A stretch of 64,000 nt of DNA from assembly GCA_017642695.1 (NCBI GenBank), contig JAEPQD010000001.1, positions 2,055,701-2,119,700 on the forward strand. Reading direction: 5' to 3'. Shown here in pieces: positions 3,781 to 34,528 of this stretch. This DNA is from Parvibaculum sp. (GTDB lineage: Bacteria > Pseudomonadota > Alphaproteobacteria > Parvibaculales > Parvibaculaceae). Below the pieces are notes generated by a model. That model was not told the DNA's origin, did no database searches, and worked only from the letters and a program-made list of their open reading frames with translations. The position numbers and the translations under genes were made by a program. Numbering within the stretch: position 1 is the first letter of the stretch; every line of letters starts with the position of its first letter.

Positions 3781-5166
3781 ATGCAGAGCGGCTGGATCGA
3801 CCTCGAGGAAGCGGCCGCGGCGGCGGAGGCCTGGGCGAACGCCCATCTCCTTTCCCCGCCGGCGGCGGTCCAGCTCGGCCTTCTTGTCCTCGCCGCTGTC
3901 GCCGCGCTGGCGGTCCGCCGCCTCCTCGTGCCCCGGCTCCAGCACTACATGGCCCAGGGCGGCGGCCGGCTCCGCCTGCGCGAGCCGCTGGCCGAGCCGC
4001 TCGCGCGGCTCCCGGTCCTCGTGCCCGTTCTCGTGGCGGCGCTCCTCGTCTGGACCGCCTATGGCCTGCGCGGGCCGCTGGGCCTTGACGGCGAGCTCCT
4101 GCGCATCGCCGCCAACCTGCTGACGGCCTGGGTCGTCATCCACCTCCTCACCAGCTTCATCCGCCAGCGCGGCTGGGCCTCCTTCATCGCCACGCTGGTC
4201 TGGCTCGTCACCGCGCTCGTCCTGCTCGGCTGGCTCGGCCCGCTCTATGCCGCGCTCGATTCCGTCGCCTTCACGGCGGGCGAGTTCCGCATCTCGCTCC
4301 TCGGCGTCATCGACAGCCTGCTGCTTTTCGGCCTCTTCCTCCTCGTCGCGAATTTCATCCTGCGTCTCGCCGATGCCCGCATGGCGCATCTCGAAGGGGT
4401 CTCGCCCGCCGCCCGCGTCCTCATCTTCAAGGTCCTGCGCATCGCGGTCATCGCCGCCGCCATCGTCGTCGCGCTCACCACCGTCGGCGTCGACCTCACC
4501 GCCATCGCCGTCTTCTCCGGCGCAGTCGGCGTCGGTGTCGGCTTCGGCCTGCAGAAGGTCGTCTCGAACCTGCTGAGCGGCATCCTTCTTCTCCTCGACC
4601 GCTCGCTGAAGCCCGGCGACGTCATCGAGGTGGGCGACGCCTATGGCTGGATCGAGAAGATGAGCGGGCGCTACGTCACGGTGGCGACGCGCGACGGCAA
4701 GGAAATCCTGATCCCCAACGAGGACATCATCACCCAGCAGGTGATCAACTGGTCCTATACCGACCGCGCCATCCGCCTGCGCATCGCGGTCGGCATTTCC
4801 TACCGCTCCAATGTCCGCAAGGCGATCGAGCTCATGACCGAGGCCGCCCTGGCGCAGCCTCGCGTCCTGTCGGACGAAACCCACAAGCCGGTGGTCCGCC
4901 TCGTGGGCTTCGGCGATTCCTCCGTCGACCTCGAACTGCGCATCTGGGTGACGGACCCCGAAAAGGGCGTCGTCAACATCGCCAGCGACATCCGCCTCGC
5001 CATCTGGGATGCCTTCCACGAAAACGGCGTCGAATTCCCGTTCCCACAGCGCGACCTCCATATCGTCTCCGCCGAAGGCCTCGAGACCCTCGCCGCGCGT
5101 TTCGCCGGAAAGCGCGAAGGCGAGGGGGAGGGCCCCGGCCCCGGTAACGGCCCCGGCAAAGGCTGA
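3781..5166 (+). CDS. MscS-family mechanosensitive ion channel
   Basis: This 461-aa protein has several N-terminal membrane helices and then the conserved MscS core. The pore-helix region is FSGAVGVGVGFGLQKVVSNLLSG, followed by the beta-domain landmarks LLDRSLKPGDVIEVGD, GRYVTVATRDGKEILIPNEDIITQ and VINWSYTDRAIRL. Channels of this family open under membrane tension and release solutes on osmotic downshift. The length exceeds E. coli MscS (286 aa), matching the larger MscS-like group with extra N-terminal helices. GGGAGG lies 5 nt before the ATG. The C-terminus ends in a low-complexity Gly/Pro/Glu tail. It stands alone on the plus strand. Confidence 0.92.
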   Translation: MQSGWIDLEEAAAAAEAWANAHLLSPPAAVQLGLLVLAAVAALAVRRLLVPRLQHYMAQGGGRLRLREPLAEPLARLPVLVPVLVAALLVWTAYGLRGPLGLDGELLRIAANLLTAWVVIHLLTSFIRQRGWASFIATLVWLVTALVLLGWLGPLYAALDSVAFTAGEFRISLLGVIDSLLLFGLFLLVANFILRLADARMAHLEGVSPAARVLIFKVLRIAVIAAAIVVALTTVGVDLTAIAVFSGAVGVGVGFGLQKVVSNLLSGILLLLDRSLKPGDVIEVGDAYGWIEKMSGRYVTVATRDGKEILIPNEDIITQQVINWSYTDRAIRLRIAVGISYRSNVRKAIELMTEAALAQPRVLSDETHKPVVRLVGFGDSSVDLELRIWVTDPEKGVVNIASDIRLAIWDAFHENGVEFPFPQRDLHIVSAEGLETLAARFAGKREGEGEGPGPGNGPGKG

Positions 5167-23621: not shown

Positions 23622-24401
23622 ATGACGAAAGTGGTGATACTGGCTGGTGGTCTCGGAACGAGAATATCCGAGGAGAGTCAGCTGCGACCCAAGCCGATGA
23701 TCGAGATCGGAGGCCGTCCGATCCTCTGGCACATCATGAAAATCTACACGCAATTCGGGCACACCGACTTTGTGATCTGCCTCGGATATCGCGGCTATAT
23801 GATCAAGGAATATTTTGCGAACTATGTGCTGCACTCGTCGGACGTGACAATCGATGCTGCAACTGGAGAGGTCATCTTTCATCAAAAGGCGAGCGAGCCC
23901 TGGCGGGTGACGCTGGTCGATACGGGCGCCGACACACTTACCGGTGGGCGCGTGAAACGTGTGAAGGATTATCTCGACCCCAACGAGACCTTTTTCATGA
24001 CCTATGGCGACGGAGTCGCCGATGTCGACATCAATGCTCTTCTTGCTTTCCACAAGAAGAATGGCAAGGAAGCCACGTTGACCAGGGTAGTGCCGCCAGG
24101 ACGCTACGGCGCTCTGGAACTCAGCGGCGACAAAGTAGCCCGCTTCATTGAAAAGCCGCCGGGTGACAATGCCTGGATAAATGGAGGATTCTTCGCGCTT
24201 GAACCCTCTGTGCTTGACCGGATCGAGGGCGACCGGAGTTCGTTTGAAGGTGAACCTCTTATGAGGCTTGCAAGCGATGGCGAACTGATGAGCTTTCCCC
24301 ACACCGGATTCTGGCAGCCTATGGATACGCTGCGCGACAAAAATCACCTGGAAGATCTGTGGGCGCGCGGAGATGCGCCCTGGAAGACCTGGAAGGACTG
24401 A
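23622..24401 (+). CDS. rfbF: Glucose-1-phosphate cytidylyltransferase
   Basis: This enzyme makes CDP-glucose from CTP and glucose-1-phosphate, the first step to CDP-deoxysugars. The 259-aa protein has VVILAGGLGTRISEESQLRPKPMIEIGG at the start, with the nucleotide-binding loop and catalytic lysine. FFMTYGDGVADVDI (metal-binding Asp), GRYGALEL and FIEKPPGDNAWINGGFF follow. It begins 16 nt after gmk, so it may read from the upstream operon. It is the first gene of the plus-strand CDP-sugar set. Confidence 0.95.
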   Translation: MTKVVILAGGLGTRISEESQLRPKPMIEIGGRPILWHIMKIYTQFGHTDFVICLGYRGYMIKEYFANYVLHSSDVTIDAATGEVIFHQKASEPWRVTLVDTGADTLTGGRVKRVKDYLDPNETFFMTYGDGVADVDINALLAFHKKNGKEATLTRVVPPGRYGALELSGDKVARFIEKPPGDNAWINGGFFALEPSVLDRIEGDRSSFEGEPLMRLASDGELMSFPHTGFWQPMDTLRDKNHLEDLWARGDAPWKTWKD

Positions 24402-24403
24402 TC

Positions 24404-25486
24404 TTGCGGCTGGACGGCCTTGACAGGGAATTCTGGAGCGGCAAGCGCGTTCTCCTGACGGGGCATACGGGCTTCAAGGGATCGTGGGCTTCGCTCTGGC
24501 TGTCGCGGCTTGGCGCAAACGTAACGGGCTATGCGCTCGCTCCGGATACGGAGCCCAATCTCTTTTCCCTCGCCCGAGTGGAAAGTGTCGTGCGTTCGAT
24601 TAGAGGCGATTTGCGCGACGAAGAAGCCTTGAGGCAGGCCGTTGCCGAAGCAGATCCTCAAATCGTGATCCATATGGCGGCACAACCTCTCGTGAGACGC
24701 TCCTATGCGGATCCGATCGGTACGTTCGACATCAACGTGATGGGGACGGCGAGGCTGCTGGACGCCTTGCGTGGCAGAGAGGGGCTCGAGTCTGTTCTGG
24801 TCGTTACGACCGACAAGGTATACGAGAATGATGAAACAGGCGCCGCTTTCCGCGAGGACGACGCTCTGGGTGGACACGATCCCTACGCGGCTTCCAAGGC
24901 AGCTGCAGAAATCGTGACCTCGTCCTACGCGCGATCTTTTCTCGAAGAACAGGGTGTGCGTGTCGCGACGGCACGCGGCGGCAATGTGATCGGCGGTGGT
25001 GATTTCTCGGAAGATCGCCTCGTGCCCGACATCTGGCGGGCACTCAAGGCAGGCGAGCCCCTAATGCTTCGCAAACCGAAGGCCGCGCGCCCATGGCAAC
25101 ATGTGCTTGATTGCCTGTGCGGGTACTTCACTTTTGCACGCGGCCTCACGGAAGGAGCGGTCGTTCCAGCAGCGTTGAACTTCGGTCCCGCGTCCGAAGC
25201 GCCTGCCATAACGGTGGCTGAACTCGCGGAAGCCGTGCAAGCAGCACTTGGTGGAGCGGGCTGGCATCCTGCAAACGATTCCGGTCCGCTCGAGATGATG
25301 GCGCTGAGTATCGACAGCACGAAAGCGCGAGAATGTCTTGGCTGGCGCGATCAACTCGCAGGAGACCGCTGTGTTTCATGGTTGTCGGACTGGTATCGTG
25401 CCCTGAATGCCGGGGCGGATATGCGTGAAAGAACATTGGCGCAGATTGAAGCCTTCGAGATCCTTCATAGGGGAACGATGGCGTGA
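24404..25486 (+). CDS. rfbG: CDP-glucose 4,6-dehydratase
   Basis: RfbG converts CDP-glucose to CDP-4-keto-6-deoxyglucose. The 360-aa extended SDR has VLLTGHTGFKGSWASLWL as the NAD motif. VIHMAAQPLVRRSYADPIGTFDINVMGT, TTDKVYEN, and DPYAASKAAAEIV with the catalytic Tyr/Lys follow. GGNVIGGGDFSEDRLVPD is characteristic of this enzyme. I chose the TTG at 24404, with AAGGAC about 6 nt upstream and 2 nt after the rfbF stop; no ATG fits better. Its stop overlaps the next gene as GTGA. Confidence 0.93.
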   Translation: MRLDGLDREFWSGKRVLLTGHTGFKGSWASLWLSRLGANVTGYALAPDTEPNLFSLARVESVVRSIRGDLRDEEALRQAVAEADPQIVIHMAAQPLVRRSYADPIGTFDINVMGTARLLDALRGREGLESVLVVTTDKVYENDETGAAFREDDALGGHDPYAASKAAAEIVTSSYARSFLEEQGVRVATARGGNVIGGGDFSEDRLVPDIWRALKAGEPLMLRKPKAARPWQHVLDCLCGYFTFARGLTEGAVVPAALNFGPASEAPAITVAELAEAVQAALGGAGWHPANDSGPLEMMALSIDSTKARECLGWRDQLAGDRCVSWLSDWYRALNAGADMRERTLAQIEAFEILHRGTMA

Positions 25487-26040
25487 GCGCGCGGTTTGAT
25501 ATCAAGGGAACACCGCTAGAGGGACTCTTCGTTGTTCGCCGCAAACGAATGGGTGACGCGCGAGGCTGGCTTGAAAGATTGTTCTGTTCTGAAGAACTGG
25601 AAGCAGCAGGCTGGATTTGGCCGGTTGCACAGTTGAACCGGACGCTGACGACAAGGAGGGGTACCGTTCGCGGGATGCATTTCCAGCATTCGCCTCACGA
25701 AGAGGCGAAGCTCGTAACATGCTTGCGGGGGGAGGTTTTCGATGTCGCTGTGGATCTCCGTTCGAGCTCGCCGACCTATGGTCGCTGGTACGGTGAACGC
25801 CTGTCGCATGACAACGCGTCAAGCCTTCTAGTTCCTCCCGGATTTGCGCATGGCTTCCAGACGCTTACGGACGATGTGGAAATGTTCTATGTCCACTCAG
25901 CGATCTACACCCCGGAGGCTGAAGGCGGCGTAAGGGCCGATGACCCGGCACTGCGAATAGATTGGCCGCTGGAAATTGCGGAAAGATCGGAGCGGGACGC
26001 GAATTTTCCCAATCTCAGATCATTGCAGGAAGGAAGCTAG
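25483..26040 (+). CDS. dTDP-4-dehydrorhamnose 3,5-epimerase-like protein
   Basis: This 185-aa cupin belongs to the RmlC family of keto-sugar epimerases. The key features are GTVRGMHFQ (catalytic His region), VTCLRGEVFDVAVDLR (catalytic Asp), and VPPGFAHGFQTL. The partner tyrosine region is present in EMFYVHSAIYTPEAEGG. It starts at a GTG overlapping the rfbG stop. Next to CDP-glucose genes rather than rmlA/B/D, it probably epimerises CDP-4-keto-6-deoxyglucose (inferred). No CDP-4-keto-6-deoxyglucose-3-dehydrase (rfbH type) is present, so a 3,6-dideoxyhexose route is not supported. Confidence 0.88.
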   Translation: MSARFDIKGTPLEGLFVVRRKRMGDARGWLERLFCSEELEAAGWIWPVAQLNRTLTTRRGTVRGMHFQHSPHEEAKLVTCLRGEVFDVAVDLRSSSPTYGRWYGERLSHDNASSLLVPPGFAHGFQTLTDDVEMFYVHSAIYTPEAEGGVRADDPALRIDWPLEIAERSERDANFPNLRSLQEGS

Positions 26041-26042
26041 AC

Positions 26043-27272
26043 GTGAAGTGCCGCCATTGTGGTTCGTCGCTGAATCTCGTTTTTGTCGACCTCGGATCGG
26101 CGCCGCCTTCGAACGCTTATCTGTCTGCTGAAATGTTGAACGCGCCCGAGACATGGTACCCGCTGAGAGTGCTCGTCTGCGAAACCTGCTGGTTGGTGCA
26201 GACCGAAGATCATGCCGGGCGTGAAGAACTATTCGCTGATGACTACGCCTATTTCAGTTCAACGTCTGCGAGCTGGCTTTCCCATTCGAAGTCTTATGTC
26301 GAACGAATGACCGCGCGCCTTGGCCTCGGACCAGAAAGCATGATCGTCGAAGTTGCGGCGAACGACGGTTATCTCCTGCAATATGTGAAGGCGGCGGGCA
26401 TTCCCTGCTATGGGATCGAGCCGACGGCGAGCACGGCGGCGGCGGCGCGCGAGAAGGGGATCGAGATCGAGGAAAAATTCTTCGGTGTCGAACTCGCTCT
26501 CTCTCTCGTCGCGGAAGAACGGCAGGCGGATTTGATAGCTGCAAACAATGTGCTTGCGCATGTGCCGGATATCAACGATTTCGTTTCGGGTTTTGCTGTC
26601 TTGTTGAAATCAGACGGTGTTGCGACGTTCGAGTTTCCGCATCTTCTGAAACTCGTCGCGGAGAACCAGTTCGACACGATTTATCACGAGCATTACTCGT
26701 ACCTCTCATTGACCGCTGTTGCGCGTATCTTTGCCGCGAACGGACTTGACGTATTTGATGTCGAGGAACTGCCGACGCATGGCGGAAGTTTGCGGGTGTT
26801 TGCGCAGAAGGTCGAAACGGGCAGGCGCGAACGCACCGAACGGTTAGCCAAAACGCTGAATGCGGAAAAAGAGGCGGGCGTTGAGGATGCTGGGTTTTAC
26901 TCGGGATTTCAGGCACGTGCAGAGAATGTGAAGAATGATTTTCTCGCTTTCCTGATCGACATCAGACGCAAGGGACTAAAGCTCGGCGCTTATGGTGCGG
27001 CTGCCAAGGGTAACACCCTCATGAATTTTGCCGGCATACGCCCCGATCTTATTCCCTACGTTGTAGACAGGGCAGCCGCGAAACAGGGAAAATTCATGCC
27101 AGGTAGCCGGATTCCGATCGTTACTGAAGCGCATATGGAAGCTGATCAGCCGGACCTCGTCGTTATTCTGCCCTGGAATATCAAGGAAGAGGTGATGAAG
27201 CAGTTGTCAGATTTGAGGAGCCGAGGGACGCGTTTTGTAACAGCTGTTCCACAACTGGCAGTGTCGGACTAG
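26043..27272 (+). CDS. Sugar C-methyltransferase, TylC3/NovU type
   Basis: This 409-aa protein has the three-part layout of sugar C-methyltransferases. It has an N-terminal zinc-binding domain (CRHCGSSL at residues 3-10 and CETCWLVQ), a central SAM domain (IVEVAANDGYLLQYV) with IYHEHYSYLSL, and a C-terminal domain (LGAYGAAAKGNTLMNF). Such enzymes add a methyl branch to a nucleotide keto-sugar carbon, often C3. It starts at a GTG (26043) with AGGAAGG upstream, 2 nt after the epimerase stop. It ends the plus-strand CDP-sugar set and shares a CTAG with the convergent glycosyltransferase stop. Confidence 0.9.
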   Translation: MKCRHCGSSLNLVFVDLGSAPPSNAYLSAEMLNAPETWYPLRVLVCETCWLVQTEDHAGREELFADDYAYFSSTSASWLSHSKSYVERMTARLGLGPESMIVEVAANDGYLLQYVKAAGIPCYGIEPTASTAAAAREKGIEIEEKFFGVELALSLVAEERQADLIAANNVLAHVPDINDFVSGFAVLLKSDGVATFEFPHLLKLVAENQFDTIYHEHYSYLSLTAVARIFAANGLDVFDVEELPTHGGSLRVFAQKVETGRRERTERLAKTLNAEKEAGVEDAGFYSGFQARAENVKNDFLAFLIDIRRKGLKLGAYGAAAKGNTLMNFAGIRPDLIPYVVDRAAAKQGKFMPGSRIPIVTEAHMEADQPDLVVILPWNIKEEVMKQLSDLRSRGTRFVTAVPQLAVSD

Positions 27273-28438
27273 CGAAGTTTCTTCTTTCGGAGCAATGCAT
27301 CTGCTGCGAGGCTTGCCTCATAGACGTTTTCCAGAGTCTGCGTTGGCGAACCCAAAGTACGGCGTTTTATCCGGCGAGCAAAATTAATCGGCAGTTCCTC
27401 AAGTTTTCGTAGCAGGCGTCGGCCCCGAGATTTGCGGCGGGCGAGCTCGTAGTCGAGGCCGTGCAGCGCGGCGAATTTGCGAGCCCAATTGGTGATATCC
27501 CGGTCGTCTGGACCTGTCGCAGAAAGTATCACTTCAAGTTGTTGATCGAAGAGCGCAGGAGGATCGTCGTTCCGCAGCGGAGCGCTCTGCAGATAAGCTT
27601 CCAGCGCAGTTACCTGAAGCGAAGGTGGATAACCGCCATCGTCCATCAGGGGGATATCTTTATGAAAAGGAATATTCTCTTCCGCCGCAAATTTCTGCGA
27701 TGGCGAGGTTTGTACTTTTTCCCGCTTCCGAAAATGATCTACGCCGATGCTGTGTTTGGAAATTCCGGCAATCGCAAGGGGTGAGCGTGAAAATCCATAC
27801 CGTGGCAGCAGAGAGGCAATGGCAAAGCCGGAATAAACATCGGGAACACAAGAGCGGTAGAATGCACCCATTCGTCTCTTTAGGTCGCTCAGAACCGCCA
27901 TGTTTGCAAATCCGCCTGTATAGAGCATCGGCAATTCGGCATAGACAACCCGGCCCTGAAGAACCCGGTTCATCCACGTTTCGCTCGGGCGGACTTCTTC
28001 ACCACGCGTCAGCGGAACTCGAATGCGACCATATTGGCGCCCCTTATTTCCGGGCCACCGGTACCGGCATATGGTGGATTGAAAGGCGAGAACATCCATC
28101 TCTCGAATAAATTCAGAGGCGCGATCCAATGCGTCGGGCAGCAAGCCGTCGTCGTCGCCGATGATCGTTACCCAATCGCCCGTTGCGTGCGAAAGTGCAA
28201 ACTCCCAGTTGCCCGACATGCTCAGGCGTTTTCCGGTATTCAAGTACCGGACTCGCGGATCAGCGACGCGCGTCACAACTTCGCGCGTGTCATCTGTGCT
28301 GAAGTTGTCACTGACGAGAATTTCCAGGTTGTCGTAGTCTTGCACGACAACGGTATGGAGTGCGGAAGCAAAGACGTCGCAGCGCTCCCGAGTGGGAATG
28401 ATGACAGTGATTTTGGGTGTGCCCGAACGGCTCGTCAT
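27269..28438 (-). CDS. Glycosyltransferase family 2
   Basis: This 389-aa protein has the GT2 fold: KITVIIPTRERCDVFASALHTVVVQDYDNLEILVSDNFSTDDT at the N-terminus, then WVTIIGDDDGLLPDAL with the metal-binding acidic motif. No membrane helix is evident. It is the last gene of the minus-strand operon, 4 nt after the CmcI-like gene. Its stop (TAG on the minus strand) shares CTAG with the stop of the convergent C-methyltransferase. Donor and acceptor sugars are not readable from the sequence. Confidence 0.88.
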   Translation of the reverse strand: MTSRSGTPKITVIIPTRERCDVFASALHTVVVQDYDNLEILVSDNFSTDDTREVVTRVADPRVRYLNTGKRLSMSGNWEFALSHATGDWVTIIGDDDGLLPDALDRASEFIREMDVLAFQSTICRYRWPGNKGRQYGRIRVPLTRGEEVRPSETWMNRVLQGRVVYAELPMLYTGGFANMAVLSDLKRRMGAFYRSCVPDVYSGFAIASLLPRYGFSRSPLAIAGISKHSIGVDHFRKREKVQTSPSQKFAAEENIPFHKDIPLMDDGGYPPSLQVTALEAYLQSAPLRNDDPPALFDQQLEVILSATGPDDRDITNWARKFAALHGLDYELARRKSRGRRLLRKLEELPINFARRIKRRTLGSPTQTLENVYEASLAADALLRKKKLR

Positions 28439-28442
28439 CTGA

Positions 28443-29192
28443 TCAACGGATGCGCTTAAGATATCCGTCAGGCCCGACTGTTATCAGAAGCTTGTGGGGA
28501 ATCGATTCATCGATTTCGAATTCCGAGTGCGACTTGAGGTACTCCCATACTGCCGTTTTGGGATTGTTGCCAGGACCCCATGGGCGGTCCGGAAAGAGCT
28601 CTGCAGGCATGTCCTCGATCAGTGTGTCGTATACGAGGCAGTAACTGCCTACAGTGACGAGCGGGGCGTAAGCCTCAAGTTCTGCAAGGACATGTTCATG
28701 CGTATGGTTGGAGTCGAGAATGACCAGTACACTTTCCTTGCCGCGCGCGGCTTCTTTCACCCTGACCGTCACATCGTCCGATATGCTGGATCCTTGAATC
28801 ATGTCGATGCGCCGCGCAAGCGGGTGTGCTTCTATCGCTTCGCGGTTATGCGGGCGAATGTCGATGTCGATACCCAGGACGCGCGCATCCTTCTTGCCGC
28901 CGCATGCTGCATTGAGCTCCAGCATCGAGGCAGAAAAGATCAGAGAGCCGCCATGAGCAATCCCGGTTTCCACGATCAGGTCCGGTTGCGTCGACCAGAT
29001 AATCTCCTGCATGGCCACAATATCTTGCGGATATTGAATTATGGGCCGCCCCAGCCATGAAAAATTGTAGGTATAGCCGTTTCGGTTTGTCTCTTTCGAC
29101 CAGACGCGCGACAGATTTTGCACTTCCTTGTCGTTGCCAAGGCGCTTGATGTTCTCGCTGACCTGTTTACGGAATGACTCGACCGGATCCAT
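28443..29192 (-). CDS. CmcI-like cephalosporin hydroxylase family protein
   Basis: This 249-aa protein (from MDPVESFRKQVSENIKRLG) belongs to the CmcI/rhamnosyl O-methyltransferase family. Despite the family name, members are SAM-dependent methyltransferases. It has GRPIIQYPQDIVAMQEIIW, LIVETGIAHGGSLIF, VLGIDIDIRPHN, VILDSNHTHEHVLAELEAYAPLV, and GPGNNPKTAVWEYLKSH. An in-frame extension to 29327 would overlap the preceding gene; the ATG at 29192 fits the family start but has a weak ribosome site. In an LPS-type operon an O-methylation of a sugar is the likely role (inferred). Confidence 0.85.
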   Translation of the reverse strand: MDPVESFRKQVSENIKRLGNDKEVQNLSRVWSKETNRNGYTYNFSWLGRPIIQYPQDIVAMQEIIWSTQPDLIVETGIAHGGSLIFSASMLELNAACGGKKDARVLGIDIDIRPHNREAIEAHPLARRIDMIQGSSISDDVTVRVKEAARGKESVLVILDSNHTHEHVLAELEAYAPLVTVGSYCLVYDTLIEDMPAELFPDRPWGPGNNPKTAVWEYLKSHSEFEIDESIPHKLLITVGPDGYLKRIR

Positions 29193-29236
29193 TGGCAATC
29201 GCTCTTCAAGTTGAATGGCTCTCCCGAGACGTCGGG

Positions 29237-30022
29237 CTACCGCGTTACGCAAGCGTAGATGATGTTGCAGTCTTCGGGATGCTGTTTTCCAAGCTCGAAA
29301 GATGCGCGGCAGAAAGCTTCTTTCCAATCACGCGTTCCTTCCGCGCCGACTCGCCCCCAGCCGAAGCCACCTTCTTCCCAAAGACCATTCTTCAGAAACC
29401 AGTCCATTTGCGGCGTAGAAAGAATTTTGTAGAAGATTCCTCCGGTCGACGCGCATTTTAGTCCGGCGGCCTCGATGTCTTTCTTCAACGTCGGGAGCGA
29501 ATAGGAGCGCCTATGACCCGCGACCTGAATATCGAAAGGGGAGAGCTCCTCGCAGCTTTCCAGCGTACCCATCAGCACGGCAAGACGCCTGTTGATCGCC
29601 TGCGCATTGGGGACGTGAATAATCAGAACGCCATCGTCATTCAGGAAGCTGGCTGCCTTCTTTAGCAGGGCAATTGGGTCGACCACATGCTCGAGCAGGT
29701 CAAGCATGGTGACGGTGTCAAACTTCTCGTTGATATCGAGGTCTTCGACCAGGCCTTCATGAAACTCCACATCGGGCAGTCGCTTTTTCGCTTCAGCGAG
29801 AATTTTCCCGTTTGCATCGACGCCGACGACACGGGACATCCGTTGAGCGAACATCTCGGTCATCAGGCCGTCGCCGCATGCGAGGTCGAGTAGCGAAGTA
29901 CCACGAATGTTTTCCAGACAGGACTCGACCTTGAACTGCGCCAGATAGCGATTGTACTCGCTGTGAAATGTGGTTCGAGACCACATGAACGTTTCTTGCC
30001 GTGCTTTCTCTTCGGTATTCAT
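29237..30022 (-). CDS. Class I SAM-dependent methyltransferase
   Basis: This 261-aa protein has a UbiG-like methyltransferase fold. SLLDLACGDGLMTEMFA is motif I, VVGVDANGKIL binds the SAM ribose, FDTVTMLDLLEHVVDP is motif II/post-I, and GVLIIHVPNAQAINRR follows. The C-terminal part differs from UbiG and contains GHRRSYSLPTLKKDIEAAGL. The ATG at 30022 overlaps the stop of the upstream fusion gene (TGATG); a GTG one codon earlier is possible. The substrate is unknown; context suggests a sugar or sugar-linked group. Confidence 0.85.
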   Translation of the reverse strand: MNTEEKARQETFMWSRTTFHSEYNRYLAQFKVESCLENIRGTSLLDLACGDGLMTEMFAQRMSRVVGVDANGKILAEAKKRLPDVEFHEGLVEDLDINEKFDTVTMLDLLEHVVDPIALLKKAASFLNDDGVLIIHVPNAQAINRRLAVLMGTLESCEELSPFDIQVAGHRRSYSLPTLKKDIEAAGLKCASTGGIFYKILSTPQMDWFLKNGLWEEGGFGWGRVGAEGTRDWKEAFCRASFELGKQHPEDCNIIYACVTR

Positions 30023-31281
30023 CACCGACCCTTCTCAGCGTATGTCCGATCATCGCACGCCCGACTCAGAAAATCGGCTAGAAGATCGACCGCCGGCCGG
30101 GAAGGCCGCCAGCCGACCGCTTCTTCCAATTTGCCGAAGCCCAGTCTGACGTTGGCTGCCTTGCCTTCTACATGAAGTTCCGAGATTTGGCACCCCTGGC
30201 CGGCGGCGGCCGCGGCCATCGCCGCGATCTGCCGGGTGCCGGTCAGGGCGCCTCCGCCGGCCTGAAAAAGGCCCGTTTCTCCTGACCGGACCAAAGCCCA
30301 GAACGCCGAAGCCCAATCCTCTGCCGTCATCAAGTCGAGCAGCGGCTCGCCATTATCATAAACATGGGTGATGATTGTTTCGCCTATGCAAGCTTTGCGG
30401 ACAAAGGCGCGCATGAAGTTGGGAGCGATGTCATCGCCGAAGACCAGGCCGCTTCGCAGAATCGTGACGTTTGCCTGCTGTTGAGCGGTCCAGGTGAGGG
30501 CCAAGGTTTCCAGCAGGTGCTTGGTGTCTCCGAGGGCGCCTGCGGGCCGGGATGGCGTCTCTTCGGTAGCCTCCATTGTTTCGCCTCGATAGCCACCGAA
30601 GACTTCCCATCGCGACGGCATGACGACAGGCAATCGCTGAATTGATGCAACTTCGAGAACGTTGCGTAGCATGGTTAATGCTTCGCCGACGGCCGTGTTG
30701 GTGTTGCTGATACGGGGCGCGGCAAAGTGGAGAATGCGTGAAACGCCGGCCTCTGCCGCGTAGAGTCCCACGGGCACGGCTCCATGCAGCAGATCGAGTT
30801 CTTGCCTGCTTGGATACAGTATTTCGATGTCTCCAGGAGCGGTGGCTGCTATGAGGCCGCCAAGGGCGCCACTCCCTCCCGTCAGCAACCACCGTTCTCG
30901 ATCAAGTACCGGAAGGTCCTTATCTGCCGTCGAGGGAAGTGATCGGCGAACCGCTTCGACGACCTCCGGACGCATCTCGCTCTCACCGGTTGCCGCTATT
31001 ACTCTTCTGATTGCGGATTCGAACGAAATTCCTTCCGTTTGCGACAGAACGCCTGCCGCGACTGCATTGCTCCTCGAGATTCCGTGATCGCAGCAAATGA
31101 CCGTCTTGCGTCCATCGCCGAGAGAGGCCGCAGCGGCGGTAATCTTGTCGCGCAATATATTTGTGGCGTTGCCGGCACGATCCACGAGCTCGCGTACGTC
31201 GATCACAGTCATGTCGGAAGCCGGCTCGATTTGAGATGCCGATGTTGTGCCGAGCAGAGGCGTGATCCAGCGAACCATCAT
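30022..31281 (-). CDS. Phosphatase-like domain fused to NAD-dependent epimerase/dehydratase
   Basis: This 419-aa protein joins two unrelated domains. Residues about 1-115 resemble a dual-specificity phosphatase: VIDVRELVDRAG, then the C-x5-R loop TVICCDHGISRSNAVAAG (C64, R70) and ISFESAIRRVI. Residues about 128-419 are an extended SDR with RWLLTGGSGALGG (dinucleotide loop 135-141), ILHFAAPRISNTNT, and RPAGALGDTKHLLETL. There L250 stands where the catalytic Tyr of YxxxK should be; K254 is kept. The ATG at 31281 overlaps the stop of the ATP-grasp gene as ATGA, so the coupling supports this start and shows the fusion is not an annotation artefact. The reaction is unknown. Confidence 0.8.
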   Translation of the reverse strand: MMVRWITPLLGTTSASQIEPASDMTVIDVRELVDRAGNATNILRDKITAAAASLGDGRKTVICCDHGISRSNAVAAGVLSQTEGISFESAIRRVIAATGESEMRPEVVEAVRRSLPSTADKDLPVLDRERWLLTGGSGALGGLIAATAPGDIEILYPSRQELDLLHGAVPVGLYAAEAGVSRILHFAAPRISNTNTAVGEALTMLRNVLEVASIQRLPVVMPSRWEVFGGYRGETMEATEETPSRPAGALGDTKHLLETLALTWTAQQQANVTILRSGLVFGDDIAPNFMRAFVRKACIGETIITHVYDNGEPLLDLMTAEDWASAFWALVRSGETGLFQAGGGALTGTRQIAAMAAAAAGQGCQISELHVEGKAANVRLGFGKLEEAVGWRPSRPAVDLLADFLSRACDDRTYAEKGR

Positions 31282-32312
31282 TTGACTTGATCGTCCGGCA
31301 CGTATGTTTCGGTCAAACTGCGAAGATACCAGCCTGGCCTTATCGACATCGGGCCAGGTTGCTCCTCGAACGCCATGAAGCGCAGCAGGATATCGATCTC
31401 GTTGAAGCCCGCGAGTGCACGCAGGTAGGTCGAGGCAGAGAAGCGTGGATTGATTTCGAAGGGGATAAGGACCCCGTTCTTTACACGGCCTTGAATATTG
31501 ATGGGACCGCAACTGTCGATCGCTTCTGCGATATGTTCCGCTTGTGAACGAAGAGAAGCGTAGTCATCAATGTGGCCTTGCGAATAGCCGCTCGATACAA
31601 GACCGCCCCGACCGCGATATGACACAGACAGTTTGGCATCCAGTGCGCGTTTAAGCGCAATCGAACCGGCGATGCTACCGTTCGGCAGAGACAGGACACC
31701 AATCGTGAACTCTCCTTCATGCTCGGAGATATATTCCTGAGCGATCGGCACATTGCCGCTACGGCGAATAAAATCGGCATATATCATCGCCTCATCACTC
31801 GTGACGGCGAAGAAAACAGAGACGCTCCCTCCCGACCCCGTCGCGGGCTTCACGATACATGGCAGGCCGACAGCCGAGATATCGAGCTCGCCCGATATGA
31901 CCTTTGTACGGGGAACTGCAATTCCGGCATGGGAAAGTCTCTCGAATGTGATTGCCTTGTCGGAAAACACCTGAACGATGTCCGAAGTATTTGCGACAAG
32001 TTGGATGCCGTGTTCTGCAAGTTCTGTTGCGGCGCTACTCAGCAGCGTCATGGGTTGCTCGCCACCAGCAACGAGCCATTCGGCTCCTGCCTCTGAACAG
32101 GCGGCGGTTACGCTCTCAATGTAGTTGTTGCGATCCACCCGATATGTCGCAGAGAAGTGTTCGTCATAAAGGCCATAGGCCGTGGGGGATATGTCACAGC
32201 CGAATATCTTGTACCCCCCGGCCAACGCAAGACACTTGCCAATTTCCGTGCCAAGTGATGCACCGCCGACGCCCGCGATCATTACCGACAACGGCGAGTC
32301 AGATTTGCTCAT
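31278..32312 (-). CDS. ATP-grasp domain protein
   Basis: This 344-aa protein has the ATP-grasp layout. It has an N-terminal Rossmann-like pre-ATP domain (SVMIAGVGGASLGTEIGKCLALAG) and the ATP-binding stretch PCIVKPATGSGGSVSVFF. IAQEYISEHEGEFTIGVL and the metal-binding C-terminal INIQGRVKNGVLIPFEINPRFSAST follow. It is related to the carbamoyl-phosphate synthase large-chain-type group. Such enzymes join a carboxylate to an amine through an acyl phosphate. Lying after a DegT aminotransferase, it could add an acyl or amino-acid group to an amino sugar (inferred). Its stop overlaps the next gene as ATGA. Confidence 0.85.
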   Translation of the reverse strand: MSKSDSPLSVMIAGVGGASLGTEIGKCLALAGGYKIFGCDISPTAYGLYDEHFSATYRVDRNNYIESVTAACSEAGAEWLVAGGEQPMTLLSSAATELAEHGIQLVANTSDIVQVFSDKAITFERLSHAGIAVPRTKVISGELDISAVGLPCIVKPATGSGGSVSVFFAVTSDEAMIYADFIRRSGNVPIAQEYISEHEGEFTIGVLSLPNGSIAGSIALKRALDAKLSVSYRGRGGLVSSGYSQGHIDDYASLRSQAEHIAEAIDSCGPINIQGRVKNGVLIPFEINPRFSASTYLRALAGFNEIDILLRFMAFEEQPGPMSIRPGWYLRSLTETYVPDDQVK

Positions 32313-32394: not shown

Positions 32395-33537
32395 TCATCT
32401 TGCTTCAGCCAGTATTTCTTTCAGGGCGCCAGCGACGATTTCGACTGTTTCTCTATCTACGTGATAGCCTGAAGGGAGATTTACGCCGTATTTCGAAATT
32501 TCGATACCCACAGGCCTTTCGGGCATGTGAGCTGATGAATGGGGGTAGTCGGAAAATGCAGGTAGGGTAGACAGGGGTGAGAAAAACGGTCGCGTGTCGA
32601 TGTTTCTTTTGCCAAGGGCGTCCATCAAAGAAAATTTATCCATGCCGATCAGCGGATCAACAATGATCGTGACCATCCAGTAAGAGTTTCGCGTACCTTG
32701 AGGCTCGGCATTGAGAGAAATTCCATCAACATTCTCGAGTTCTTCTTTGTACCAACGAAATATTTCGCGCTTTCGGAATATAAGCTCGTCTGCTCGTTCA
32801 ATCTGGGCGAGGCCAAAGGCTGCCTGCAGCGCACTCATCTTGTATTTGAAGCCTATCTCCGTGTTGAGAAAGAGCTTGTCGCCAGGTGGCCGTCCATGAT
32901 CTCGAAGTGCCATGACGCGCTGGTGAAGATGATCGTCGTTGGTGACAAGCATTCCTCCTTCACCCGTGGTTACGGTTTTCGATCCGTGGAAGGAAAAGAC
33001 GCCCGTGTCGCCGAGTGCACCGGCCTTCTTCCCAGCATATTCTGACCCGAGGGCTTCTGCCGAGTCTTCGACAAGGAGAAGACCGTGTTGGTCTGCAATG
33101 CGCCGTAGTTCGACCCAGTCCGCCATCGATCCATATAGGTCGACGCCGATGATAGCCTTGGTTCGGTCTGTGATTGCGGCTTTGACCGAGGAGGGATCAA
33201 TGCACCACGTATCCTTCTTAATGTCGGCGAATATCGGCGTTGCTCCGACATAGACTACAGGGGCGACCGACGCGATCCATGTAACGTCTGGGACGATTAC
33301 TTCGTCTCCGGGGCCAATGCCGCCGGCTGCAAGTGAAAGATGAATAGCGGCTGTGCAATGAGGCAGAGAAACGGCGGGCTTCACCCCCACATACTCGGAA
33401 AACGCTTTCTCGAAGCGGGCATTGAAGGTGTAGTGATCCTTGAACCAGGCGGTCCGTGCGGCTTCCGAGACATACTCGATTTCCCGTTCGGTGATCCATG
33501 GACCAGCGACAGGAATAGGGGTATTTGCTCGAATCAC
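32395..33537 (-). CDS. DegT/DnrJ/EryC1/StrS aminotransferase
   Basis: This 380-aa PLP enzyme aminates keto-sugars. It has IPVAGPWITEREIEYVSEAART at the N-terminus and AVSLPHCTAAIHLSLAAGGIGPGDEVIVPDVTW. LLVEDSAEALGSEYAGKKAG has the PLP-ring Asp. SFHGSKTVTTGEGGMLVTND carries the PLP lysine, and IGFKYKMSALQAAFGLAQ follows. Length and motifs are close to GDP-perosamine synthase types. I placed the start at the GTG at 33537; an in-frame reading continues to 33630 without a family match. It is the first gene of the minus-strand operon. An 82-nt gap precedes the ATP-grasp gene. The sugar substrate is unknown. Confidence 0.9.
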   Translation of the reverse strand: MIRANTPIPVAGPWITEREIEYVSEAARTAWFKDHYTFNARFEKAFSEYVGVKPAVSLPHCTAAIHLSLAAGGIGPGDEVIVPDVTWIASVAPVVYVGATPIFADIKKDTWCIDPSSVKAAITDRTKAIIGVDLYGSMADWVELRRIADQHGLLLVEDSAEALGSEYAGKKAGALGDTGVFSFHGSKTVTTGEGGMLVTNDDHLHQRVMALRDHGRPPGDKLFLNTEIGFKYKMSALQAAFGLAQIERADELIFRKREIFRWYKEELENVDGISLNAEPQGTRNSYWMVTIIVDPLIGMDKFSLMDALGKRNIDTRPFFSPLSTLPAFSDYPHSSAHMPERPVGIEISKYGVNLPSGYHVDRETVEIVAGALKEILAEAR

Positions 33538-33697
33538 GATTTGTCTGCCCGCGTATAAGGTTACAGCCAGTCGACCTTTGTTATGTCGGCGGGGCCGGAG
33601 TATACAAGGAATTATTACTATCAAAAACAAGGCGCGCTGAATACGGATTCAGGGTGCCTTGAGCACGGATTTGAGGCTCGACGAACGCGGATATGGT

Positions 33698-34528
33698 ATG
33701 GGATTGCTAAGGCAAACGAGAAAGACGCTCCGCCGCACCGGGTACAGGTTGTCATGTGCCCGGAAAGTGCTCACGACCGGAGAACGGCCCCCGCGTATCG
33801 CCTTCATACATACGCCGAAGACAGGTGGAACATCGATCAACAGCTATTTTAAAGAGTATGTTGGTTCGAAACGCAGCGGGCGAATTGTGTTCTACGATGA
33901 CTTTTCACAGTTGCCGTTGAATATATTCGTGGAACAGGCCCGCAAGGCGAGGTTTGTTACTGGTCATATGCCATGGACAGCCTTCGAGAGTTTCCGGGAC
34001 GAAACCACCTATTCCCTGACTTTCCTGAGAGATCCATACGATCGATTGAGATCGCTTTATCAGTACGTGGCCAATCTGCCACCGAGCGTCAGAGACGATG
34101 ACGACGTCAGACTCGTAAAGACGATGTCCTTGAAAGATTTTCTGGTCTCCAGACATCCTGTCGTCGTATCCGGAGCGAATAACTTTGTCGCACGGCAGTT
34201 TGCAGGCTCTCTGGGATACATCCCAAGATCCCGAGAGGAAAGATTGAGCCTCGCAGAGGCGGCGATTCATAACCTTTCGACGATTGATCTGATCGGATTC
34301 AACGACAGCTTCGACTCTGCTTTCATGAAGGTAGCAGAGATCGCGGGTCTCCCTCCGCCCCCTGCGGGCAGGAAAATGAACGTCACGGCATCGTTCATAA
34401 GCTCGACGGAAAAAAAGACCGAAGCGACGCGCTCACTCGACGAGGAAATGAGGGAGCTTGCCAGACCGCTGGTCGAAGCCGATTTGATCGTCTACGAACA
34501 TTTCAGGAGACTGAGCAATCTTCCTTAG
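33698..34528 (+). CDS. Sulfotransferase family 2 protein
   Basis: This 276-aa protein has the two PAPS-binding motifs of the sulfotransferase family: PPRIAFIHTPKTGGTSINSYF (5'-phosphosulfate loop) and SLTFLRDPYDRLRSLYQY (3'-phosphate motif). Such enzymes move sulfate from PAPS to a carbohydrate hydroxyl. I chose the only nearby ATG (33698); a TTG at 33659 would add 13 residues. It is divergent from the DegT operon. A sulfated surface glycan is possible, but no PAPS-synthesis gene is here. Confidence 0.82.
   Translation: MGLLRQTRKTLRRTGYRLSCARKVLTTGERPPRIAFIHTPKTGGTSINSYFKEYVGSKRSGRIVFYDDFSQLPLNIFVEQARKARFVTGHMPWTAFESFRDETTYSLTFLRDPYDRLRSLYQYVANLPPSVRDDDDVRLVKTMSLKDFLVSRHPVVVSGANNFVARQFAGSLGYIPRSREERLSLAEAAIHNLSTIDLIGFNDSFDSAFMKVAEIAGLPPPPAGRKMNVTASFISSTEKKTEATRSLDEEMRELARPLVEADLIVYEHFRRLSNLP

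Follow-up and report, generated by a model that had tools for sequence, protein, structure and literature searches.

In Campylobacter jejuni HS:2, the ATP-grasp ligase Cj1438C amidates glucuronic acid with serinol phosphate or ethanolamine phosphate, after which Cj1435 removes the phosphoryl group by hydrolysis, according to the available part of the source (PMC11800379). The TupA-like Cj1438C is part of a fusion with a glycosyltransferase, Cj1435 is of the HAD type, and no short-chain dehydrogenase/reductase (SDR) partner is named in that part (PMC11800379). The surface-sugar cluster of CA_C2195, as far as the accessible part of the paper describes it, includes an ATP-grasp aminoacyl ligase, a nucleoside diphosphate (NDP)-sugar epimerase, and an acetyltransferase fused to a HAD phosphatase; the genes are scattered over the cluster, and the subject of the paper is another protein (PMC4000134). 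Because of this cluster, finding ATP-grasp, epimerase, and phosphatase domains together around surface sugars is not unprecedented. The window analyzed here is a stretch of 64,000 nucleotides from Parvibaculum sp. (GenBank assembly GCA_017642695.1, contig JAEPQD010000001.1, positions 2,055,701 to 2,119,700). It carries a gene in which a dual-specificity phosphatase (DSP) domain is fused to an extended-SDR domain, beside a PRK12767-type ATP-grasp gene. No paper was recognized as describing a DSP-SDR fusion or a tight ATP-grasp/SDR/phosphatase module among the open-licence matches listed, with most subscription papers lying outside them.

We favor the explanation that the fusion protein provides the phosphatase and SDR components of a three-part set (ATP-grasp, SDR, and phosphatase) making or attaching an unusual group in a pathway for cell-surface glycans, with a probability of roughly 0.6. 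Judged from gene content, the DSP domain probably replaces the separate phosphatase of this set. The simplest reading is that it took over the phosphatase post and was fused to the SDR. The likeness to Cj1438C/Cj1435 lies in a polysaccharide pathway, an ATP-grasp whose small-molecule substrate is phosphorylated, and a phosphatase dedicated to removing the phosphate afterwards, as given in the available part of that source (PMC11800379). It is a likeness and not a membership, as the window combines a PRK12767-type ATP-grasp with a DSP fused to an SDR.

The DSP-SDR Fusion Gene

The fusion gene is encoded on the minus strand (31281..30022), a point absent from the preliminary description of this DNA, which had been made from the sequence alone. 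The plus-strand frame over 30022..31281 contains many stops. The gene and its features are as follows.

30022..31281, minus strand: DSP-SDR fusion gene, 419 amino acids (translation; orthologs compared)
30928..31281, minus strand: phosphatase domain of the DSP/protein tyrosine phosphatase (PTP) type, about residues 1-118 (DSPc profile, model, fold search)
31180..31182, minus strand: D34, candidate general acid, 30 residues before C64 (alignment with DSP relatives, ortholog invariance)
31072..31092, minus strand: phosphate-binding loop C64-D-H-G-I-S-R70 (sequence, ortholog alignment, models)
30025..30900, minus strand: extended-SDR (Epimerase) domain, residues 128-419 (PF01370, E = 3.2e-12; PDB fold matches)
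30859..30882, minus strand: TGGSGALG nucleotide-binding motif, residues 134-141 (translation, ortholog alignment)
30610..30612, minus strand: R224 at the place of the SDR catalytic Ser/Thr (ortholog and SDR alignment)
30532..30534, minus strand: L250 at the place of the SDR catalytic Tyr (ortholog and SDR alignment)
30520..30522, minus strand: K254, the retained Lys of YxxxK (ortholog and SDR alignment)

The translation agreed with the preliminary description. A single frame holds CDHGISR (C64-R70), followed by the SDR domain with GGSGALG, and L250 occupies the Tyr position of YxxxK with K254 kept. The overlaps with both neighbors were also as described: the ATG of the fusion gene shares ATGA with the stop of the ATP-grasp gene (31278..32312), an overlap of four bases, and its stop overlaps the ATG of the methyltransferase gene as TGATG. 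The window gene and its four orthologs are all uninterrupted frames; a frameshift or assembly artefact was therefore rejected, and the fusion is genuine and conserved. A TGA reported in the ortholog of genome G304 is the stop of that ortholog itself, after residue 416 of its stretch. The observation of a phosphatase-SDR fusion is thus confirmed.

The sequence CCDHGISRSN and residues D34, R224, L250, and K254 are invariant in the window gene and the four orthologs, whose domains are 52-84% identical to those of the window. Pairwise ratios of nonsynonymous to synonymous substitution (dN/dS) are 0.10-0.23 in 13 of 20 comparisons, those that were computable (6 of 10 for the DSP domain and 7 of 10 for the SDR domain); these values are rough, as the other seven comparisons were saturated and many dS values exceed 1.

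The Phosphatase Domain

The two parts were searched separately with profile hidden Markov models, as the preliminary description had proposed. Residues 1-119 showed a sub-threshold match to DSPc (PF00782; E = 1.1e-4, 22.4 bits, and 19.0 bits for the whole protein), and residues 128-419 matched Epimerase (PF01370) above its cut-off of 20.9 bits (E = 3.2e-12, 46.8 bits). With phmmer against PDB, the best matches to the first domain were ShufPTP (E = 0.0064) and then mouse DSP (E = 0.038). At lower ranks, further PTPs and DSPs appear among solute-binding proteins and designed 'Pizza' proteins; the latter two groups are taken as chance matches.

When 398 phylum genomes were searched with a profile of the five ortholog domains, six non-self sequences matched at E <= 0.01. 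Four of them are three PAP2-DSP-like fusions (L015, L017, and L020) and one DSP-PTP protein (L016). The other two were dropped: L019 reads as rhodanese-like and is unrelated, and L018 is a chance match in an open frame opposite an apparent cysteinyl-tRNA synthetase. D34 is aligned to Asp in three of the four DSP relatives and to Glu in the fourth, and the predicted local distance difference test (pLDDT) score of the whole-protein model is low at residues 33-38.

In L015, L017, and L020, a membrane part, which we take to be PAP2-like, precedes a profile-supported DSPc domain whose loops are of the [VS]CCALGY or SCALGY type. The DSP parts of these three are among the nearest relatives found for the DSP domain of the window.

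The model of the domain, built with nine aligned sequences, has a pLDDT of 74.1 and a predicted template modelling score of 0.71. A formed phosphate loop, which the preliminary description had suggested looking for, is predicted: C64-R70 is placed between strand 59-63 and helix 68-83, where C64 directly follows the strand and R70 lies in the opening turns of the helix. The whole-protein model from the five orthologs only shows nearly the same elements in this part. In the fold search of the domain model against PDB, 48 of the 50 matches listed are PTP/DSP-type entries and the other two are axoneme cryo-EM chains; the listed matches have E-values of 5.7e-4 to 0.02 and query TM-scores of 0.39-0.59. 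Because orthologs, profile, and fold all point to DSP, a chance C-x5-R motif was rejected. The sub-threshold profile match, the alignment, the model, and the fold search together support the assignment of the first domain as DSP/PTP-like. It shares the C-x5-R loop, a candidate acid Asp, and the modelled fold with DSPc-family phosphatases, including ShufPTP and the PAP2-DSP-like fusions. Unlike them, it is compact, has Cys instead of His before the nucleophile, scores below the Pfam cut-off, and is fused to an SDR.

The same genome has a second weak DSPc match of 20 bits, L056 (G000:C1:1579869-1579964), in a 191-amino-acid open frame outside this cluster.

The SDR Domain

TGGSGALG is invariant in the five genes, except for A139 and L140. 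In all five, L250xxxK254 stands in place of YxxxK, and R224 stands in place of the catalytic Ser/Thr of classical extended SDRs. The fusion protein scores 26.4 bits against TIGR01181, the dTDP-glucose 4,6-dehydratase equivalog, far below its cut-off of 365.1. The listed PDB fold matches of the SDR part, obtained from a poor model, are SDRs (GDP-4-keto-6-deoxymannose reductase, GalE, RmlD, and RmlB). The whole-protein model has a mean pLDDT of 57.4, and it falls below 50 at residues 225-244, 279-318, and 342-419, too low for a judgement of the SDR active site. The domain has the Epimerase profile, the fold matches, TGxxGxxG, and the Lys in common with the sugar-nucleotide extended SDRs RmlD, RmlB, and MoeE5, but differs from them in having Leu for the catalytic Tyr and Arg for the Ser/Thr.

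As a control, Tyr is kept at the aligned place in 13 of 15 Epimerase-family hits of the same genome. The two exceptions are the fusion protein and L072 (G000:C1:1667680-1668327), an Epimerase-family protein that lacks both the Tyr and the Lys of YxxxK.

The preliminary description proposed that the fusion may bind or isomerize a phosphorylated sugar intermediate. Isomerization by the standard SDR route is unlikely, because the Tyr and the Ser/Thr are both gone. Another acid/base residue could serve, for example Y231, which is invariant in the alignment of the five fusion genes and lies where the model is poor. The loss of Tyr is fixed in the five genes.

Other Phosphatases at Related ATP-Grasp Loci

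Thirteen loci outside the genus of the window were compared: 11 genome loci and 2 plasmid records. From the class sample, every match of the ATP-grasp family model NF009402 outside the genome of the window was taken at E <= 1e-60 (5 of 289 genomes). Six further matches came from the phylum sample at E <= 1e-50 (398 genomes), a seventh, G066, being already in the set. The two plasmid records are from 76 that match the ATP-grasp of the window, 73 of which are from Sinorhizobium.

A phosphatase gene adjoins the ATP-grasp gene, or sits one gene off, in 12 of the 13 loci. It is calcineurin-like (Metallophos/Metallophos_2) in ten (L036, L038, L039, L040, L041, L050, L051, L052, L053, and L054) and PHP-type in two (L042 and L049), which look mutually related and are thus not independent. 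Among the six genome loci above the curated family cut-off, the phosphatase is found in five. Such adjacency should, by estimate, be rare by chance, because the genome of the window has one PF12850 hit. A separate SDR other than RfbG is found in the same gene run in 10 of the 13 loci, in L041 with two genes between it and the ATP-grasp, and YxxxK is kept in all ten. The phosphatase gene is located before, after, or beyond the SDR gene. Runs with a calcineurin-like phosphatase (L036, L039, L040, L041, L050, L052, L053, and L054) and those with PHP (L042 and L049) thus resemble the window in their related ATP-grasp with SDR and phosphatase neighbors. They differ in that the phosphatase has another fold and its own gene and in that the SDR keeps YxxxK.

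Three of these loci, L051, L052, and L053, share most of the cassette of the window, the other genes of which are as follows.

31278..32312, minus strand: ATP-grasp ligase (NCBIfam PRK12767.1-1, 309.3 bits, above the equivalog cut-off of 218)
32395..33630, minus strand: DegT/DnrJ aminotransferase (profile match)
29237..30025, minus strand: S-adenosylmethionine-dependent methyltransferase (profile match; ATG overlaps the fusion stop)
28443..29327, minus strand: CmcI/rhamnosyl O-methyltransferase family protein (PF04989, E = 1.7e-95)
27269..28438, minus strand: GT2 glycosyltransferase (profile match)
23622..27272, plus strand: convergent arm with glucose-1-phosphate cytidylyltransferase, CDP-glucose 4,6-dehydratase, RmlC-like epimerase, and C-methyltransferase (profile matches)

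The shared proteins are RfbF (65-68% identity), RfbG (46-48%), RfbC (45-50%), the C-methyltransferase (55-58%), DegT (45-49%), CmcI (52-66%), and the ATP-grasp (25-26%); a homolog of the methyltransferase is also present in L052 and L053. No match to the GT2 of the window was found in the three loci at E <= 1e-6. Where the window has the DSP-SDR fusion, all three have a calcineurin-like phosphatase, and L052 and L053 have an SDR in addition. The phosphatase of L053 reads with full motifs that are presumably metal-binding. In an unrooted tree of 18 ATP-grasp sequences, the DSP-linked ones form one clade (support 1.0), placed beside L037, L038, and L041 (support of the union 0.88); L037 is the locus without a phosphatase.

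The ATP-grasp partner and the exchange of phosphatases are not in the preliminary description. Its proposal of a phosphatase acting on a small molecule of a sugar pathway gains support from the phosphatases of other folds beside related ATP-grasps. Its interpretation as a whole is partly supported.

In L042 (1581-7934) and L049 (4084-10614), the run of PHP, ATP-grasp, and SDR comes directly after sulfate-activation genes of the cysD/nodQ(cysN)/cysQ type, as annotated in L042 and by reading in L049. This setting suggests a link with sulfated glycans. In L040 (14333-16326), a second SDR lies by an apparent ATP-grasp-like gene and a gene like those of thiamine pyrophosphate enzymes (labels by reading); the first ATP-grasp/SDR/phosphatase set is a few kb away.

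Proposed Mechanism

ATP-grasp enzymes form acyl-phosphates, which they join to a nucleophile. The ATP-grasp of the window has KPATGSGGS and EINPRF, which we take to be the motifs expected for this catalysis. It may attach an acid or amine that carries a phosphate to a sugar intermediate, presumably NDP-linked, and DegT perhaps supplies an amino group. By the logic of the C. jejuni pathway, with other parts, the ligated phosphorylated unit would then be dephosphorylated via Cys64. A cysteinyl-phosphate would form at C64 while D34 serves as the acid and R70 holds the phosphate, which would be released by water. The SDR domain may still hold a dinucleotide, a sugar nucleotide, or both, without the classical Tyr-driven chemistry, and it would position the substrate or catalyze a step with another residue. 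The substrate, the remaining role of the SDR, and the order of dephosphorylation and ligation are inferred.

The occurrence of three phosphatase folds by related ATP-grasps suggests an obligatory dephosphorylation in the glycan pathway, which narrows the possible chemistry. The fusion is also a naturally occurring example of an SDR fold that has remained conserved after losing the catalytic Tyr and Ser/Thr and is linked to a phosphatase. Tentatively, and with somewhat less than even confidence, it can be proposed that the PRK12767-type ATP-grasp, SDR, and phosphatase work together as a widespread glycan-modifying unit of three parts, whose phosphatase may be calcineurin-like, PHP, or DSP, one type replacing another. 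The merged enzyme of this genus would channel a phosphorylated sugar adduct, with an SDR freed from Tyr chemistry as the substrate holder.

Alternative Explanations

Several observations weigh against the assignment of the fusion to a three-part set. Both the first domain alone and the whole protein stay below the DSPc gathering cut-off of 33.5 bits. Only one listed PDB fold match of the domain has E <= 0.001, the TM-scores are modest (0.39-0.59), and the alignment behind the domain model included four recognized DSPs and may bias it toward the DSP fold. The Cys before the nucleophile C64 and the shortness of the domain are further departures. As for the related loci, 5 of the 11 genome loci fall below the curated family cut-off and 6 above it (below: L039, L040, L052, L053, and L054, in genomes G118, G073, G680, G369, and G332, respectively). 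One locus of the 13, L037, has no adjacent phosphatase, and L037, L038, and L051 have no SDR in the run. ATP-grasp identity between the window and the other loci is 20-33%. The SDR of the window matches their SDRs weakly, at best 25% to L041 (E = 6.5e-6 against the 13 loci), which does not demonstrate orthology.

DSPs classically act on proteins, and CpsB (PHP) and Wzb are protein phosphatases that regulate glycan export or a tyrosine kinase. A similar regulatory role for the fusion would suit the DSP fold and the PHP-domain protein that holds this place in 2 of the 13 loci. We know of no calcineurin-like enzymes acting as tyrosine phosphatases, and these hold the place in ten loci. The partner of the fusion is moreover a ligase and not a kinase, and the fused domain is a metabolic fold. 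The available part of one report does describe a PHP-family tyrosine phosphatase, Php1 (PMC6759763), in favor of such a role, which we nevertheless consider improbable. Still less probable is that both domains are catalytically altered, the DSP merely binding phosphate and the SDR being structural. The SDR without Tyr and Ser/Thr and the sub-threshold DSPc score would fit this, but C64, R70, and D34 are invariant, and the domain occupies the place that a phosphatase has in other loci, that of L053 with its full motifs included.

Two further possibilities were considered. The DSP domain might act earlier, on a phospho-acid or sugar phosphate in free form, whose dephosphorylation would yield the substrate of the ATP-grasp. 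No result here fixes the order of the reactions, and the place of the phosphatase gene relative to the SDR gene varies by locus. The C. jejuni enzyme, however, acts after ligation in the available account (PMC11800379), and the fusion to a sugar-nucleotide SDR fold would suggest a larger substrate; an earlier action is therefore unlikely. A slightly better, still low chance is given to an SDR domain that remains an active oxidoreductase or epimerase through another residue such as Y231, which would be compatible with the three-part set. The invariance of Y231, of K254, and of TGxxGxxG and the low dN/dS of the SDR domain in the 7 of 10 pairs that could be computed are consistent with it. Against it, none of the ten SDRs of the related sets lacks the usual Tyr, so that they offer no precedent, and most Epimerase-family hits of the same genome (13 of 15) keep it.

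Distribution

Of 40 genomes of the family, five carry the full fusion; they all belong to the genus of the window (5 of the 27 listed for it) and have it at one site. L001, from the scan of GTDB contigs, is apparently the same record as L010, the proteins being identical and both contigs 36676 long. The ATP-grasp gene is present at E <= 1e-30 in the same five genomes and in no other of the 40, and the two genes overlap in all five.

No fusion beyond the genome of the window was found in the class sample, either with the DSP domain at E <= 0.001 (289 genomes) or with the whole profile at E <= 1e-18 (385 genomes), or in the phylum sample at E <= 0.01 (398 genomes). The class and phylum samples overlap, and the first scan scored only some candidates per genome. 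Both non-self matches to the DSP domain in the class, L004 and L005, were dropped as unrelated after reading. A viral or plasmid origin is not supported: the phage search gave no match, reading of 24 pattern matches in viral contigs revealed no relative, and the only two matching plasmid records match the SDR half alone. A role in anti-phage defence is not supported either, as neither the fusion nor the ATP-grasp had a PADLOC match at E <= 0.01.

Neighboring Genes

The same cassette surrounds the fusion gene in the four other genomes, flanked by adh-rsmA-pdxA and, on contigs that extend far enough, by gmk at the opposite end. In these genomes, the cytidylyltransferase, CDP-glucose dehydratase, RmlC-like epimerase, and C-methyltransferase genes face those for CmcI, the methyltransferase, the fusion, the ATP-grasp, and DegT. 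L013 is a short contig ending inside the dehydratase gene, and gmk and the cytidylyltransferase gene are outside its reach. In the window, the RmlC-like epimerase scores just under its equivalog cut-off.

The place of the GT2 gene varies. It is between the C-methyltransferase and CmcI genes in the window (27269-28438), and between the ATP-grasp and DegT genes in L011 (11727-12887) and L012 (5815-6972). L013 has a GT2 at the latter place (4056-4940), without a match to that of the window. A sulfotransferase-family gene lies between the DegT and adh genes of the window (33659-34528); it was undetected in L011, L012, and L013 and is present in the closest relative, L010.

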